Origin: an uncultured Arthrobacter sp.
GTDB taxonomy: Bacteria > Actinomycetota > Actinomycetes > Actinomycetales > Micrococcaceae
Assembly (NCBI RefSeq): GCF_902805515.1
Contig: NZ_CADCTE010000135.1
Span: forward strand, 1 to 35,421
Length of the DNA: 35,421 nt
Direction of reading: 5' to 3'
Shown here: one piece after another, positions 25,941 to 31,072 of the stretch
Position numbering within the stretch: the first letter of the stretch is position 1
Layout of the letters: every line of letters starts with the position of its first letter
Translations under genes and position numbers: made by a program
Notes under the pieces: generated by a model
The model's database searches: none
Told to the model about the DNA's origin: nothing
The model's input: only the letters and a program-made list of their open reading frames with translations

Positions 25941-27488
25941 CTACCGGCGTTCCGGAAGGACCGATGCGCCGCCGGCGGACGCTTCGACGGCCGGAGCGTC
26001 GTCGTCGGGCACGTTGCCCGCGACTCGGTCCTCCCACGCGGCCATGACGGCCGGATCGGTAGGTCGGCTCGCCACTGACACGATGATGTAGACGACCGCG
26101 GAGGCGCCCAGTCCAATGTAGATCGGCCAGTTCGAGTAGATGCCTTCGTACTGGTTCTCGGCGTTCACTTCGAGGAAGATCATGGTGCCGAGGGTGAAGA
26201 CCGTCCCGACGGCCATTGAGATGCCGGCGCCGAGCCCGTTGCCGCCCTTCCAGACGAGGCCGCCGATAATGGCGACGAGGAGCCCGCCGACGAGGATGTC
26301 GTAGGCGATGGTCAGGGCGGCGACGACGTCCTGCACCACGACCGCGAGCAGGATGGCGGTCACGCCGAGGCCGAACACCCACCACCGGCTGCTTCCGACG
26401 TCGTGCCCGCCGGCCTCCGGTGCCGGCTGGTGCGCGCTGCCCGCGCCCCGCCGCGACCAGCTCCGAACGTAGGGCAGGACGTCGGTGCGGGCCACCGTCG
26501 CCGCTGCGATGAGCGCGCCCGACGCCGTTGACATCATGGCGGCGACCGCGGCGGCCAGGACCAGGCCGCCGATCCCGATCGGCAGGACGTTGAGGGCGAT
26601 GTCGGCGTAGACGTCGTCCTGGGACTCGATGTCCGGCAGGATGACGCTCGCGGACATCCCGATCAGCGCCCCGGCCACCCCGTACAGGATGCAGTAGATG
26701 CCTGCGGTGGCTCCGCCCCAGCGGGCGACCTCCGGTGTGCGGGAGGTGAAGACGCGCTGCCAGATGTCCTGGCCGATCAGCAGGCCCAGGGTGTAGACGA
26801 CGAAGTAGGTGAGGATGCTCTGGGCGCCGATGCCGGTGATGTCGAAGAACTCCGCGCCGGCGCGCTCGGAGATTCCCTCGAACCCTCCGGCCGAGGAAAG
26901 CGCGAACGGAAGCATCAGGGCGAAGACCCCGATCGTCTTGATGACGAACTGCGCCATGTCGGCCAGGGTGATCGACCACATGCCGCCGACCGCCGAGTAA
27001 ATCACCACGATGATCCCGCCGATGGCGATCGAGAGGGCGCGGTCCCAGCCAAAGAGGACGACGAAGATCGTGGCATAGGCGCCGGTGGAGGTGGCGCACA
27101 GCATCAGGGTGTAGGCCAGCATGACGATGCCCGAGACCTTCGTCGCCTCCGAGCCGTAGCGCAGGCTGAGCATCTGCGACACGGTGTAGATCTTCAGCCG
27201 CTGGATCGAAGGGGCGAACAGCAGGCTCAGCAGCAGCACGCCCACCCCGATGGCGACGACGAGCCACATCCCCGAGATTCCGTAGGTGTAGCCCAGGCCG
27301 ACGCCGCCGACGGTCGAGGCCCCGCCGAGGACCACGGCGGCCATGGTGCCCGTGTAGAGCAGTGGCCCGAGGCGCCGGCCGGCCACCAGGTAGTCACTCG
27401 CGTTCCGGGTGCGGGACTTGCCCCACCAGCCGAAGCCGAGCATGGCCACGAGATAGACGACCACTATCGCCGCATTAAGATATTCCAT
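25941..27488 (-). CDS. Sodium:solute symporter (SSS/SLC5 family)
   Basis: 515 residues from the ATG at 27486-27488 (MEYLNAAIVVVYL), with TGGGTGGGA upstream; a longer GTG start at 27515 would lie inside the operator element. About 13 membrane segments. Family landmarks: GGASTVGGVGLGYTYGISGMW, VSQMLSLRYG, and GGMWSITLADMAQFVIK. These proteins couple Na+ to uptake of an organic solute. Divergent from the XRE-cupin regulator and sharing promoter and operator architecture with the ureohydrolase operon, so I infer a guanidino compound, polyamine or related amino acid as substrate. Confidence 0.87.
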   Translation of the reverse strand: MEYLNAAIVVVYLVAMLGFGWWGKSRTRNASDYLVAGRRLGPLLYTGTMAAVVLGGASTVGGVGLGYTYGISGMWLVVAIGVGVLLLSLLFAPSIQRLKIYTVSQMLSLRYGSEATKVSGIVMLAYTLMLCATSTGAYATIFVVLFGWDRALSIAIGGIIVVIYSAVGGMWSITLADMAQFVIKTIGVFALMLPFALSSAGGFEGISERAGAEFFDITGIGAQSILTYFVVYTLGLLIGQDIWQRVFTSRTPEVARWGGATAGIYCILYGVAGALIGMSASVILPDIESQDDVYADIALNVLPIGIGGLVLAAAVAAMMSTASGALIAAATVARTDVLPYVRSWSRRGAGSAHQPAPEAGGHDVGSSRWWVFGLGVTAILLAVVVQDVVAALTIAYDILVGGLLVAIIGGLVWKGGNGLGAGISMAVGTVFTLGTMIFLEVNAENQYEGIYSNWPIYIGLGASAVVYIIVSVASRPTDPAVMAAWEDRVAGNVPDDDAPAVEASAGGASVLPERR

Positions 27489-27502
27489 TGTTCCCACCCA
27501 AT

Positions 27503-27531
27503 CGTTGTTGCACACGAAGCAACTTTTGTTT
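27503..27531 (-). promoter_or_regulatory. Operator element downstream of the symporter promoter
   Basis: On the transcribed strand it has GTTGC, seven bases and GCAAC (27507-27523), preceded by AAACAA. The same layout occurs at 28323-28351 before the ureohydrolase, at the same distance from the -10 box. It covers about +1 to +29 of the predicted transcript, typical of a repressor site, probably for the adjacent XRE-cupin regulator. Confidence 0.6.
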
Positions 27532-27537
27532 CATCAT

Positions 27538-27567
27538 AGGCTAGAGTGATAAAGGTCACTTCGTCAA
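27538..27567 (-). promoter_or_regulatory. Symporter promoter with a CRP-like palindrome in its spacer
   Basis: TTGACG (-35, minus strand, 27562-27567), an 18-base spacer and TAGCCT (-10, 27538-27543). The spacer contains AGTGA-TAAAGG-TCACT (27545-27560, plus strand), a perfect palindromic CRP-like site lying between the two boxes, where bound protein would block or alter polymerase access. Confidence 0.6.
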
Positions 27568-27583
27568 TCGGGAACCATCCGGG

Positions 27584-27617
27584 CGCTTCATAGAAGCGAC
27601 GCTGCGATCGCTATGCT
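27584..27617 (+). promoter_or_regulatory. Promoter of the XRE-cupin regulator with inverted repeat
   Basis: CGCTTC-ATA-GAAGCG (27584-27598) is a perfect inverted repeat positioned over the expected -35 region of a TATGCT -10 box (27612-27617). Autoregulation through this site is possible. The repeat differs from the GTTGC-N7-GCAAC element. Confidence 0.4.
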
Positions 27618-27662
27618 CTATCTTGACTCCCGTTCGTTCCCTTTCCCCCTGGGAGGACTGCC

Positions 27663-28241
27663 ATGAAGGCCCTGCCTGTTGAACCCACCAACGCCCCGGT
27701 GGCGATCGGTTCCCGCATCCGCGCCGCCCGGCAGTCCCAGCGCATGACCATCGAGCAGGTGGCGGAGGCGACAGGGTTGACGAAGGGGTTCCTCAGCCGG
27801 GTCGAGCGCGACCTCACCTCGCCCTCGGTGGCGTCGCTCGTCACCCTGTGCCAGGTCCTCTCCATCTCCATCGGCGACCTGTTCCTGGCCCCCGAAACCC
27901 ACCTGACCCGCCTTGAGGAGGCTCCCCGGATCAGCCTTGGCGGCGAGGGGATCATCGAGCGGCTGATGACCGCCCGCTCGGAGCGCCGCCTGCAGATGAT
28001 CCGGGCCGTGATCGAGCCGCACGGGCGTGGGGAGGCCGAACTGTACTCGGTGGACTGCGAGGTTGAGACCCTGCACGTGGTGGAGGGCTCCTTCGAGCTG
28101 ATTTTCTCCAATGAGCGCTTCGAACTGCAGGCGGGGGATACGGTGACCTTCCCCGGACGCGAACCGCACACCTGGGCCAACCCCTCGGGGGAGCAGGCCG
28201 TTATCCTGTGGACCCTGGTGCCGGCAGCCTCGGGTAAATAG
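27663..28241 (+). CDS. XRE-family regulator with C-terminal cupin domain
   Basis: 192 residues, ATG with GGGAGGA five bases upstream. Residues about 13-70 are an HTH_3 domain (IGSRIRAARQSQRMTIEQVAEATGLTKGFLSRVERDLTSPSV), and about 115-190 a single cupin barrel (TLHVVEGSFELIFSNERFELQAGDTVTFPG) that would sense a small ligand. This build is shared by PuuR-type regulators of polyamine breakdown. It lies between the symporter (divergent) and the ureohydrolase operon, both of which carry a common operator, so local control is likely. Effector unknown. Confidence 0.9.
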   Translation: MKALPVEPTNAPVAIGSRIRAARQSQRMTIEQVAEATGLTKGFLSRVERDLTSPSVASLVTLCQVLSISIGDLFLAPETHLTRLEEAPRISLGGEGIIERLMTARSERRLQMIRAVIEPHGRGEAELYSVDCEVETLHVVEGSFELIFSNERFELQAGDTVTFPGREPHTWANPSGEQAVILWTLVPAASGK

Positions 28242-28286
28242 GCGGGGTCGACGACGGTGCCCCGGCGTCTTCGGGCGGTCCGCACC

Positions 28287-28316
28287 TTGACCCGTGACCC
28301 GGCCCACAATTAGCCT
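28287..28316 (+). promoter_or_regulatory. Ureohydrolase operon promoter
   Basis: TTGACC (-35, 28287-28292), 18-base spacer, TAGCCT (-10, 28311-28316). Same spacing and -10 sequence as the symporter promoter. The spacer also starts with a GTGACC element and ends with CCAC, a degenerate version of the CRP-like site seen in the symporter spacer. Confidence 0.6.
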
Positions 28317-28322
28317 TGTGCA

Positions 28323-28351
28323 AAACAATTGATGCATATTTAGCAACTTCG
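28323..28351 (+). promoter_or_regulatory. Operator element downstream of the ureohydrolase promoter
   Basis: AAACAA (28323-28328) followed by GATGC (28331-28335), seven bases and GCAAC (28343-28347), then a CG two bases on. An ungapped comparison with the symporter element, starting from each -10 box, gives 26 identities in 43 positions, with the same phase. It is a probable site for the neighbouring regulator. Confidence 0.6.
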
Positions 28352-28390
28352 GTGCGCCGGGTGTGCACCCCTGAGGAATGGACGACGCCC

Positions 28391-29377
28391 ATGGAAGAAC
28401 TGCGCATTACGGCAGGTGGCCACCTCGGCCCCATCGATTCGGCCCGCGTGCCGCGCTACTCCGGCGCCGCGACCTTCGCGCGGCTCCCGCGCCTCGACCA
28501 GGTGGACCGCACTGACATCGCCGTGGTGGGCGTTCCCTTTGACTCCGGCGTCTCGTACCGGCCGGGGGCGCGGTTCGGCGCCAACCACGTCCGCGAGGCA
28601 TCACGCCTGCTGCGCCCCTACAACCCGGCGCTCGACGTCTCGCCGTTCGAACGCGTCCAGGTTGCCGACGCCGGTGACATGGCGGTCAACCCCTTCAATA
28701 TCCATGAGGCCATCGAGACGGTCCAGGCCAACGCACTCGACCTGACCGCCGACGGAACCCGGCTCGTCACCCTCGGCGGGGATCACACGATCGCCCTGCC
28801 CCTGCTGCGGGCGGCCTCCGAACGGGCGGGCTCACCAGTGGCTCTGCTCCACTTCGATGCCCACCTCGATACCTGGGACACCTACTTCGGCGCGGAATAC
28901 ACCCACGGGACGCCCTTCCGGCGGGCCGTCGAGGAAGGGATCCTCGACACCGAGGCCATCTCGCACGTCGGAACGCGCGGACCCCTGTACGGCGTGAAGG
29001 ACCTCGAGGACGACCGGCGCTTCGGCTTCGGCATCGTCACCTCCTCCGATGTGTTCCGCCAAGGGGTCGACGAGGTCATCGCCCGGCTGCGGGACCGCAT
29101 CGGCAACCGGCCGCTGTACGTCTCGGTCGACATCGACGTGCTCGACCCCGCCCACGCCCCGGGCACCGGCACCCCCGAGGCCGGCGGAATGACAAGCCGT
29201 GAGCTCCTTGAGATCCTGAGGGGACTGCGCGGCCTGAACCTGGTCGGCGCCGACGTCGTCGAGGTGGCTCCCGCCTACGACACCGCCGAAATCACCGGCG
29301 TCGCGGCCTCCCATGTCGCCTACGACCTCGTCAGCCTCATGGCCGACAACCTCACCTCGCCTTCAAAGGAAAGCTGA
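28391..29377 (+). CDS. speB: Agmatinase/guanidinobutyrase-family ureohydrolase
   Basis: 328 residues from the ATG at 28391; GAGGA lies 13 bases upstream, a long spacing. A longer TTG frame from 28316 would start inside the promoter and operator, so I reject it. The arginase-fold metal site is complete: His132 (GGDH), Asp156, His158 and Asp160 (DAHLD), Asp247 and Asp249 ([19 protein letters not shown]), binding two Mn2+. Such enzymes release urea from agmatine, 4-guanidinobutyrate, 3-guanidinopropionate or related compounds, which cannot be told apart by eye. The next gene follows directly and could be a 2-ketoarginine decarboxylase, which would favour guanidinobutyrase. Confidence 0.88.
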
Positions 29378-31072
29378 ATGGAAATCACCGACAGCGCCGC
29401 CTCAGTTCCGCCCCAGCCCCTCCTCACCGGCCAGCGCAACGGCGGTGACCTCGTCGTCGAGACGCTGACCGCCCTGGGTGCCACCACCGTCTTCGGAATC
29501 CCGGGCCAGCATGCCCTCGGGCTCTTCGACGCCCTGTCCCGCTCGCCGCTGCGCTTCGTCTCCTCCCGGGTGGAAAACAATTCGGCGTTCGCCGCCGACG
29601 GCTTCTCCCGGGCCACGGGTGAGGTCGGCGTCCTCTTCCTCTCCACCGGTCCCGGGGCGCTCACCTCGCTGGCCGGACTCCAGGAGGCCTACGCCACCGG
29701 CGTCCCGATGATCGTGATCGCCAGCCAGATCCCGCTCGAGGGCCTCGGCGCGCGGCGCAAGGGCATGCTCCACCAGCTCGACGACCAGAAGGCCTCGGCG
29801 GCGAACGTCACCAAGAGCCAGCGGCTGATCCAGCACGCCTCGGGGATCCCCTCGGCGATCCAGGACGCCTGGACCGAAGCCGTCTCCTCGCCGCAGGGAC
29901 CGGTCTGGATCGAGGTGCCCCAGAACGTGCTGCTGGACCCGGTGATGGTGCCGCGGGTCGAGGATGCGCTCGCCGAGCCGTTCGACAACCCTCCGCGCGT
30001 CGAACTCGTCCGTGAAGCGATCGAGTGGCTCACCGCCTCCAAGCGTCCCGCCATCGTCGCCGGCGGCGGAGCGCGCCGCGGCAAGGCCGAACTCGAGCTG
30101 CTCTCCATCGCCGAAAAGCTCGGCGCCCCCGTCGTGTGCTCACCCGGCGGCAACGGCGCGTTCCCCTGGAACCACGAGCTGTCGCTGCAGTCCTGGGTCG
30201 AGGACCGCCACGTCACCGAGGTGCTCGAGGACGCCGACCTCCTGCTGGTCATCGGCTCCTCCCTCGGTGAGGTCACCTCCAACTACTTCACGCTCGAGCC
30301 GCGCGGGCGCATCATCCAGATCGACGCCGAACCCCGCGTCCTCGAATCGAACCGCCCGGCGCTCGGCATCCGGGCCGACGCAGGCCAGGCACTGAAGGCC
30401 CTCGACGAGGCGCTGCCGGCGCTCGACCGCGGACGCACCGAGGGCTATGACGCCGCCGCGCTGGTCGCGGAGACCCTCGCCAAGGTCTCGGCGCGCCTCG
30501 ACGCCCAGGACCTCGGGATGGAGCGCAAATTCATGGCCGACATCCGCGAAGCGGTGCCGGACTCAATGCAGACCTTCTGGGATATGACCATCTCCGCCTA
30601 CTGGGCGTGGAGCTGCTGGGACTCACGCGACGGACAGTTCCATTCGGCACAGGGTGCCGGCGGCCTCGGCTACGGCTTCCCCGGCGCCATCGGCGGCACC
30701 GTCGGCCTGGAATCAAAGGGCCTGCCGCCGCGGGTGCTCGCGGTCTCCGGCGACGGCTCGGCCATGTACTCCATCGCGGAGCTGGCGACGGCGAAACAGC
30801 ATAACCTCCCCGTCACCTGGCTCATCGTCGATGACGGCGGCTATGGCATCCTGCGCGAATACATGGAGGGCGCCTTCGGCAAGGCGACGGCCACCGAGCT
30901 GGCCCGGCCCGACTTCGTGAAGCTCGCCGAGGCCTTCGGCGTTCCGGCGCGGAGGGTCGCCCCTGCCGACGTCCGGGAGGCCCTCGAGGAGAGCCTTGCG
31001 GCCGAGGGACCGAACGTCGTCGTCGTCGAGACACTGCTGCGCCTCTTTGCGCCGACGCACCTGGCCGACTGA
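29378..31072 (+). CDS. Thiamine-diphosphate enzyme, acetolactate-synthase/decarboxylase type
   Basis: 564 residues; the ATG directly follows the ureohydrolase stop, with AAGGAA six bases before it, so translation is coupled. Three ThDP-enzyme domains are visible: PYR (20-190) with the activating Glu66 (RVENNSAFAADGFSRATG), a middle domain (205-345) with VIGSSLG, and PP (390-555) with GDGS at 458-461. The usual NN that closes the ThDP/Mg2+ motif is DD (485-486, in LIVDDGGYG), which is unusual. It could decarboxylate a 2-oxo acid. The arginine-transaminase route uses such an enzyme (AruI, 2-ketoarginine decarboxylase) upstream of guanidinobutyrase; this context makes that my favoured, unproven idea. 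Confidence 0.85.
   Translation: MEITDSAASVPPQPLLTGQRNGGDLVVETLTALGATTVFGIPGQHALGLFDALSRSPLRFVSSRVENNSAFAADGFSRATGEVGVLFLSTGPGALTSLAGLQEAYATGVPMIVIASQIPLEGLGARRKGMLHQLDDQKASAANVTKSQRLIQHASGIPSAIQDAWTEAVSSPQGPVWIEVPQNVLLDPVMVPRVEDALAEPFDNPPRVELVREAIEWLTASKRPAIVAGGGARRGKAELELLSIAEKLGAPVVCSPGGNGAFPWNHELSLQSWVEDRHVTEVLEDADLLLVIGSSLGEVTSNYFTLEPRGRIIQIDAEPRVLESNRPALGIRADAGQALKALDEALPALDRGRTEGYDAAALVAETLAKVSARLDAQDLGMERKFMADIREAVPDSMQTFWDMTISAYWAWSCWDSRDGQFHSAQGAGGLGYGFPGAIGGTVGLESKGLPPRVLAVSGDGSAMYSIAELATAKQHNLPVTWLIVDDGGYGILREYMEGAFGKATATELARPDFVKLAEAFGVPARRVAPADVREALEESLAAEGPNVVVVETLLRLFAPTHLAD

Follow-up and report, generated by a model that had tools for sequence, protein, structure and literature searches.

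A conserved three-half-site operator and a candidate XRE-cupin regulon for guanidino-compound genes in Arthrobacter

The promoters of a symporter gene and a ureohydrolase gene of an uncultured Arthrobacter sp. share a block of three half-sites, which recurs upstream of an aminotransferase gene elsewhere in the genome. In the wider family, this block accompanies a gene for an XRE-cupin regulator, the same gene that lies between the two promoters here. Our analysis defines, at the level of sequence, a putative operator, its conservation, three target promoters and its co-occurrence with the regulator gene. We think it likely that an XRE-cupin repressor acts on this shared operator at the symporter gene, the ureohydrolase/TPP gene pair and the aminotransferase gene, and that it is released by an arginine or guanidino metabolite. 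What began as a likeness between two promoters thereby becomes a regulon open to testing, in which the operator is defined, the regulator gene is named and the target promoters number three; if true, it would supply the regulator by which these soil bacteria control the breakdown of guanidino compounds.

Results

The window, by which we mean the whole analysed stretch of 35,421 nucleotides, holds the genes and promoter elements listed in Table 1. The regulator combines an N-terminal HTH_3 domain (PF01381, residues 19-73) with a C-terminal Cupin_2 domain (PF07883, residues 133-184), both above cut-off and in a single small protein as is typical of the XRE-cupin class, and it is 98% identical to its Arthrobacter crusticola counterpart. 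The symporter passes the Pfam cut-off for PF00474 (101.3 bits) and matched nine NCBIfam models, reaching the cut-off of none.

Table 1. Genes and promoter elements of the locus, with positions in the window
Feature	Position	Strand	Remark
SSF-family sodium:solute symporter gene	25941..27488	-	start ATG at 27488
Symporter operator, AAAC-N4-GTTGC-N7-GCAAC	27507..27531	-	exact; 6 nt past -10 box
Symporter -10 hexamer, TAGCCT	27543-27538	-	18 nt from -35
CRP-like palindrome, GTGACCTTTATCAC	27546..27559	-	in symporter promoter spacer
Symporter -35 hexamer, TTGACG	27567-27562	-	aligned in relatives too
XRE-cupin regulator gene	27663..28241	+	192 aa; between symporter and ureohydrolase genes
Ureohydrolase -35 hexamer, TTGACC	28287-28292	+	
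Ureohydrolase -10 hexamer, TAGCCT	28311-28316	+	18 nt from -35
Ureohydrolase operator, AAAC-N4-GATGC-N7-GCAAC	28323..28347	+	exact; 6 nt past -10 box
Ureohydrolase gene (4-guanidinobutyrase or agmatinase)	28391..29377	+	
TPP-dependent enzyme gene	29378..31072	+	first base is the one after the ureohydrolase stop

An earlier note on this DNA had read both promoters as TTGACS, 18 bases and TAGCCT, and we find the hexamers and spacing as it claimed, on the minus strand for the symporter and on the plus strand for the ureohydrolase. Our recount also agrees with its figure of 26 identical bases out of 43 in an ungapped alignment from the -10 box. The likeness persists when the -10 box is left out (20 of 37 bases agree, whereas shuffled sequences average 9.95; P = 0.00035) and when register and length are left free (P = 0.002 from shuffles). 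A generic promoter scan of positions 27400-28500 called no promoter, probably because TAGCCT is too far from TATAAT for the rule of the scan, and support for both promoters comes instead from conservation. Of the 32 symporter promoters aligned, 20 have TTGAC followed after 17-18 nt by a TAGCCT, TAGCTT or TAACCT box; 18 of these have an 18-nt spacer together with the 6-nt gap to the operator, and the other two have a 17-nt spacer. Of 45 ureohydrolase promoters, 19 combine the 6-nt gap with a 17-nt spacer and 7 combine it with an 18-nt spacer. A separate palindrome upstream of the regulator gene, CGCTTC-ATA-GAAGCG (27584-27598), was considered as an autoregulatory site and rejected; in the part of the alignments inspected by eye, it is found in the window and, nearly intact, in L004 only.

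The conserved block reads MAAC-N4-GWTGC-N7-GCAWC in relatives, i.e., three half-sites whose direction alternates (CAAC, GTTG and CAAC type) separated by 4 bp (half-sites 1 and 2) and 7 bp (half-sites 2 and 3). Its length is 25 bp, and from the pattern the outer half-sites are 21 bp apart, about two helical turns. The perfect GTTGC-N7-GCAAC repeat reported earlier for the symporter is present and corresponds to half-sites 2 and 3; the AAACAA motif is likewise real, but the element as first described was one part short, AAACAA being half-site 1 of three. The 3.74-Mb genome has two exact matches to the full pattern, both at this locus, against one for a reversed control pattern. With one mismatch allowed, the pattern matched 6 times and the reversed control 11 times, too noisy a result for extending the regulon.

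The earlier note had proposed a search for the block in relatives and had regarded its loss where the genes are kept as evidence against its reading. For this search, we took 60 named loci (L004-L063) and excluded nine with a regulator identity below 58%. A locus was also excluded if its symporter or ureohydrolase hit was missing, did not reach close to residue 1 of the protein or pointed the wrong way. This left 36 symporter and 48 ureohydrolase regions, or 37 and 49 including the window. At a threshold of at least 12 of 14 letters on either strand, 30 of the 37 symporter regions hold the operator, 28 of them in the same direction as the gene, as do 45 of the 49 ureohydrolase regions; the rate in shuffled regions is 0.5-0.6%. 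Four ureohydrolase regions (L042, L043, L050 and L051) and seven symporter regions fell below this threshold, the latter with 11/14 (L006, L016, L017 and L026) or with 8 or 9 letters (L012, L037 and L047). The block is retained in most relatives, but in L012, L037 and L047 it has apparently gone from in front of a symporter hit that is kept.

Individual loci show two further features. The regulator-symporter gaps of L037, L047 and L012 are 86, 84 and 55 nt, both start codons counted, and the symporter operator and -35 box are apparently gone; the symporter hit of L012 comprises the first 130 residues only. In several relatives, other genes, transporter-like by eye, lie between the regulator and ureohydrolase genes, as in L015 (5590-7737; amino-acid-permease-like) and L024 (5635-9133; ABC-type), and the operator remains with the ureohydrolase gene.

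Exact matches to the operator number 49 in the genus, spread over 32 of 38 genomes, against 7 for the reversed control, and for 43 of the 49 the XRE-cupin gene is no more than about 5 kb away (two of the 43 overlap in G024). The XRE-cupin gene itself is present in all 38 genomes, six of which have no exact match. Six matches are off-locus, and of the five inspected two (L119 and L120) precede an aminotransferase gene and three (L118, L121 and L122) apparently do not, with the match at G036:C27 left out and L122 lying outside the protein comparison. This aminotransferase gene, which is not linked to the locus, was found in 38/38 genus genomes. Upstream loci were obtained from 30 of these genomes, and 29 of the 30 hold the operator at 12/14 or better (shuffles, 0.3-0.6%). 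In the window genome, the aminotransferase gene (contig C121) has a weaker copy, 12/14, just upstream of a -10-like box, in which GGGCAACAGCTGTTGCCC is a perfect palindrome formed by half-sites 1 and 2. The C121 site is the sole match in the genome to the shorter pattern GSMAACANNNGTTGCC, for which a control pattern also gave one match; at the genus level, the pattern of half-sites 1 and 2 gave 42 listed matches against 32 for the control (a hand sum) and was too noisy for extension. Among 20 off-locus matches in the family, 17 adjoin the aminotransferase gene and three (L127, L141 and L143) do not; as these matches were chosen by eye, this count is given no weight and a matrix test was used instead. 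The L127 site (G155:C19, position 2016) is an exact operator just before a gene that is transporter-like by eye, with a second ureohydrolase homologue some 14 kb away.

For the weight matrix, 73 sites from symporter and ureohydrolase promoters served as the training set, with p values from 200 resampled copies of each region, and a site was called at p <=0.01; test region L199 has DNA in common with training locus L050, whose symporter site was in the training set and whose ureohydrolase site was not. With this matrix, a site was again detected upstream of 29 of the 30 genus aminotransferase genes. In the family as a whole (149 genomes), the XRE-cupin gene was found in 112 genomes at E <=1e-40, the ureohydrolase gene in 132 and the aminotransferase gene in 116. 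A site precedes the ureohydrolase gene in 12 of 20 genomes with the XRE-cupin gene, hand-picked from the 112, versus 1 of 20 genomes without it, these being every XRE-negative genome with a ureohydrolase gene (17 of the 37 negatives have none, by elimination; Fisher P = 0.0002). In the other 8 positive genomes, a site lies before the XRE-cupin gene. Counting both places, a site is present in 20/20 XRE-positive and 1/20 XRE-negative genomes (Fisher P = 1.5e-10), a comparison in which the positives were read at two places and the negatives at the ureohydrolase only; five positives (G045, G047, G099, G141 and G169) were already known to have an exact match close to the regulator, and without these the count is 15/15. 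Regions upstream of the XRE-cupin gene in other genera hold the operator in 17 of 20 cases, including G080, G141 and G169, for which an exact match was known beforehand.

In other genera, a site was detected before the aminotransferase gene in 12 of 20 genomes with the XRE-cupin gene, hand-picked from those not flagged by the exact pattern, and in 0 of 11 without it, out of 12 XRE-negative genomes with a hit (G136 was omitted; Fisher P = 0.0009); the other 8 positive regions have no site. Among the 11 XRE-negative aminotransferases, seven have an identity to the query of only 45-53% and could be paralogues; three of the 20 positives are at 52-53%. Restricting the comparison to at least 60% identity gives 12/17 versus 0/4 (Fisher P = 0.02). 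Relatives share ancestry, and none of these counts are of independent genomes. The comparative data favour the earlier proposal that one regulator, most likely the XRE-cupin protein, serves both promoters of the locus. As in other members of its class, the sites of this regulator would lie beside its own gene, at the divergent symporter promoter and the next promoter downstream. A different regulator, encoded elsewhere, might bind the operator with the XRE-cupin gene merely adjacent, and the matrix does detect a site (p 0.01) in one XRE-negative genome, G177 (region L193). Genomes were classed as XRE-negative when they gave no match at E 1e-40, and they could thus hold a more divergent regulator. 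We consider this explanation very unlikely, given the rarity of sites in XRE-negative genomes (0/11 aminotransferase and 1/20 ureohydrolase regions), the 17/20 sites that precede the regulator gene in genera where it is close to the ureohydrolase gene, and the location of the exact copies in the window genome beside the regulator gene only.

The position of the operator relative to the -10 box is less constant than the earlier note had supposed. The fixed phase that it described, with the operator downstream, holds for 27/45 ureohydrolase promoters; in 13/45 the operator is upstream of a -10-like box, and 5/45 have neither arrangement (regions below 11/14 were excluded from this geometry, leaving 32 symporter, 45 ureohydrolase and 29 aminotransferase regions). 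In these 13 promoters, which belong to Sinomonas, Pseudarthrobacter and several other species, a TANNNT-type box follows the operator at 7-8 nt and no -10 box precedes it. At the aminotransferase gene, TAGACT or TAGAAT is found 6-8 nt past the operator in 29/29 promoters, and in many genus promoters TTGCC(T) of half-site 2 is, by eye, followed by the -10 box after about 17 nt. These positions bear on whether the inverted repeat could work as RNA, as a hairpin or attenuator in a 5' leader transcribed at both genes. GTTGC-N7-GCAAC could indeed pair in a leader, and a scan calls a terminator-like stem on the plus strand, antisense to the symporter transcript. However, where a -10-like box follows the block, the block should be untranscribed; in the ureohydrolase version, half-sites 2 and 3 pair at a mean of 3.6 of 5 positions; and no Rfam family reached its gathering score within 27300-28700. 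We regard an RNA element as extremely improbable.

The symporter promoter carries a further conserved element. The earlier note had found GTGACC in both spacers and a complete palindrome at the symporter only; GTGACC does occur in both, but in registers one base apart, and GTGA-N6-TCAC, the CRP-type consensus, is matched at 8/8 letters at the symporter and 7/8 at the ureohydrolase. Among relatives, 31/32 symporter promoters conserve at least 7/8 letters and 15 conserve all of them, where shuffles predict 0.35 and 0.0, respectively; this promoter thus has a conserved CRP-like box and probably receives a second input. The corresponding figures for ureohydrolase promoters are 7/45 and none exact; as 7 exceeds the shuffle expectation of 0.46, a remnant or weaker CRP-like site is possible in some relatives. 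Several regions upstream of regulator genes (L254-L271; e.g., L262-L267) have a GTGTTG-N4-TCACA-like element before the operator, and the CRP-like box may travel with the operator module.

Discussion

Our results suggest a route by which the genes of this locus could be controlled. The 25-bp blocks would be operators to which the XRE-cupin protein binds directly. In the window genus, the operator usually starts 6 nt past the -10 box and would therefore cover roughly +1 to +25 of the predicted transcript, where bound protein may block polymerase at the start site. An arginine or guanidino metabolite, acting through the cupin domain, could cause release, and release would turn on uptake and a pathway like the arginine transaminase route. 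XRE-cupin proteins of Pseudomonas aeruginosa are described in PMC7901475 as inhibitors that most likely act by promoter occlusion and as local repressors on core promoters, and we hold repression to be most likely here. It is conceivable that the XRE-cupin protein represses where the operator is downstream of the -10 box and activates where it is upstream, i.e., at the aminotransferase gene and some ureohydrolase genes. The 13/45 ureohydrolase and 29/29 aminotransferase promoters with upstream operators would suit an activator, and the 13 ureohydrolase promoters have, by eye, no TTGACA-like -35 box. However, half-site 2 precedes the -10 box by about 17 nt in many of the genus aminotransferase promoters, where a repressor would thus occupy the -35 region; a repressor also fits both operator positions, whereas an activator fits only the upstream one. 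Together with the inhibitor function described in PMC7901475, this makes activation unlikely. If the regulon is real, its promoters would form a natural series in which one operator is placed before or after the -10 box. A more elaborate form of this model is possible but doubtful: the operator may be tripartite, with two XRE-cupin dimers sharing or competing for the middle half-site so that the register of a higher-order complex depends on ligand, and the module may be reused on either side of the -10 box in an actinobacterial arginine/guanidino catabolic regulon.

The arginine transaminase route leads from arginine through 2-ketoarginine, 4-guanidinobutyraldehyde and 4-guanidinobutyrate to GABA and urea. 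It is the best fit that we can propose for the locus from the predicted gene products. The closest solved structure to the ureohydrolase is the guanidinobutyrase 3nio (280.1 bits). The TPP enzyme is probably a 2-ketoarginine decarboxylase; it scores 327.6 bits against NCBIfam PRK07524 (5-guanidino-2-oxopentanoate decarboxylase), below the cut-off of 500, and 351 bits, more than with PRK07524, against the hypothetical PRK08266, below the cut-off of 571. The nearest solved chains to the aminotransferase are 1x0m and 3aov, of the LysN/kynurenine aminotransferase II type, and none of its best 25 NCBIfam models reached the cut-off. In G051 and G124, the XRE-cupin gene, the ureohydrolase gene and a relative of the aminotransferase gene (52-53% identical) form, by coordinates, a single cluster in which about 1.8 kb separates the latter two. 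The same operator and regulator could instead serve the use of agmatine or putrescine, as with PuuR. PuuR (NF007408) is the best NCBIfam model for the regulator, matching over nearly its full length with 68.7 bits, and the ureohydrolase passes the agmatinase cut-offs (TIGR01230, 220.4 versus 174.3 bits; NF002564, 310.6 versus 302 bits). However, the regulator misses the PuuR equivalog cut-off (211 bits), a guanidinobutyrase is the closest ureohydrolase of solved structure, and neither a co-regulated aminotransferase of this fold nor a TPP enzyme is known to have a role in agmatine hydrolysis. An Arthrobacter Zn-guanidinobutyrase identical with D-arginase is also cited in PMC11271267. We therefore judge an agmatine or putrescine role to be rather unlikely. 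The Zn-guanidinobutyrase/D-arginase, from Arthrobacter sp. KUJ 8602, shares the genus name and plausibly the activity of the ureohydrolase studied here.

Several known systems resemble the one proposed here. The P. aeruginosa arginine transaminase pathway comprises AruH, AruI and GbuA and is controlled by other regulators. Like that pathway, the genes here encode an aminotransferase, a TPP enzyme and a guanidinobutyrase-like ureohydrolase, and they are joined by one operator type. The resemblance to AruH and AruI has limits, as the aminotransferase is nearest to the LysN/kynurenine aminotransferase II type and the TPP enzyme is below the PRK07524 cut-off. Escherichia coli PuuR is the top NCBIfam hit of the regulator, but with a score below its equivalog cut-off, and the enzymes of the gamma-glutamylation route differ from those of this locus. 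The P. aeruginosa regulators PauR, PsdR and PA0535, as described in PMC7901475, likewise have an HTH and a cupin domain, targets beside their own genes, sites on core promoters and a role in amine or amino-acid metabolism. The three P. aeruginosa motifs given there are described as palindromes and as quite different from one another, in contrast to the three alternating half-sites observed here, and the phylum and the enzyme set differ. The regulator type is known, but neither the operator nor the regulon was found in the literature searched: among the matches listed, with subscription journals mostly outside the search, none concerned an XRE-cupin regulator of guanidinobutyrate or arginine transaminase genes in Micrococcaceae.

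Two of the loci recovered carry unexpected labels. L013 (WNZI01000046.1), labelled Vibrio cholerae strain 35D, is an Arthrobacter-type locus with a regulator 88% identical to that of the window and suggests contamination or mislabelling; L049, recorded as an Acidobacteria MAG, is similar (74%).
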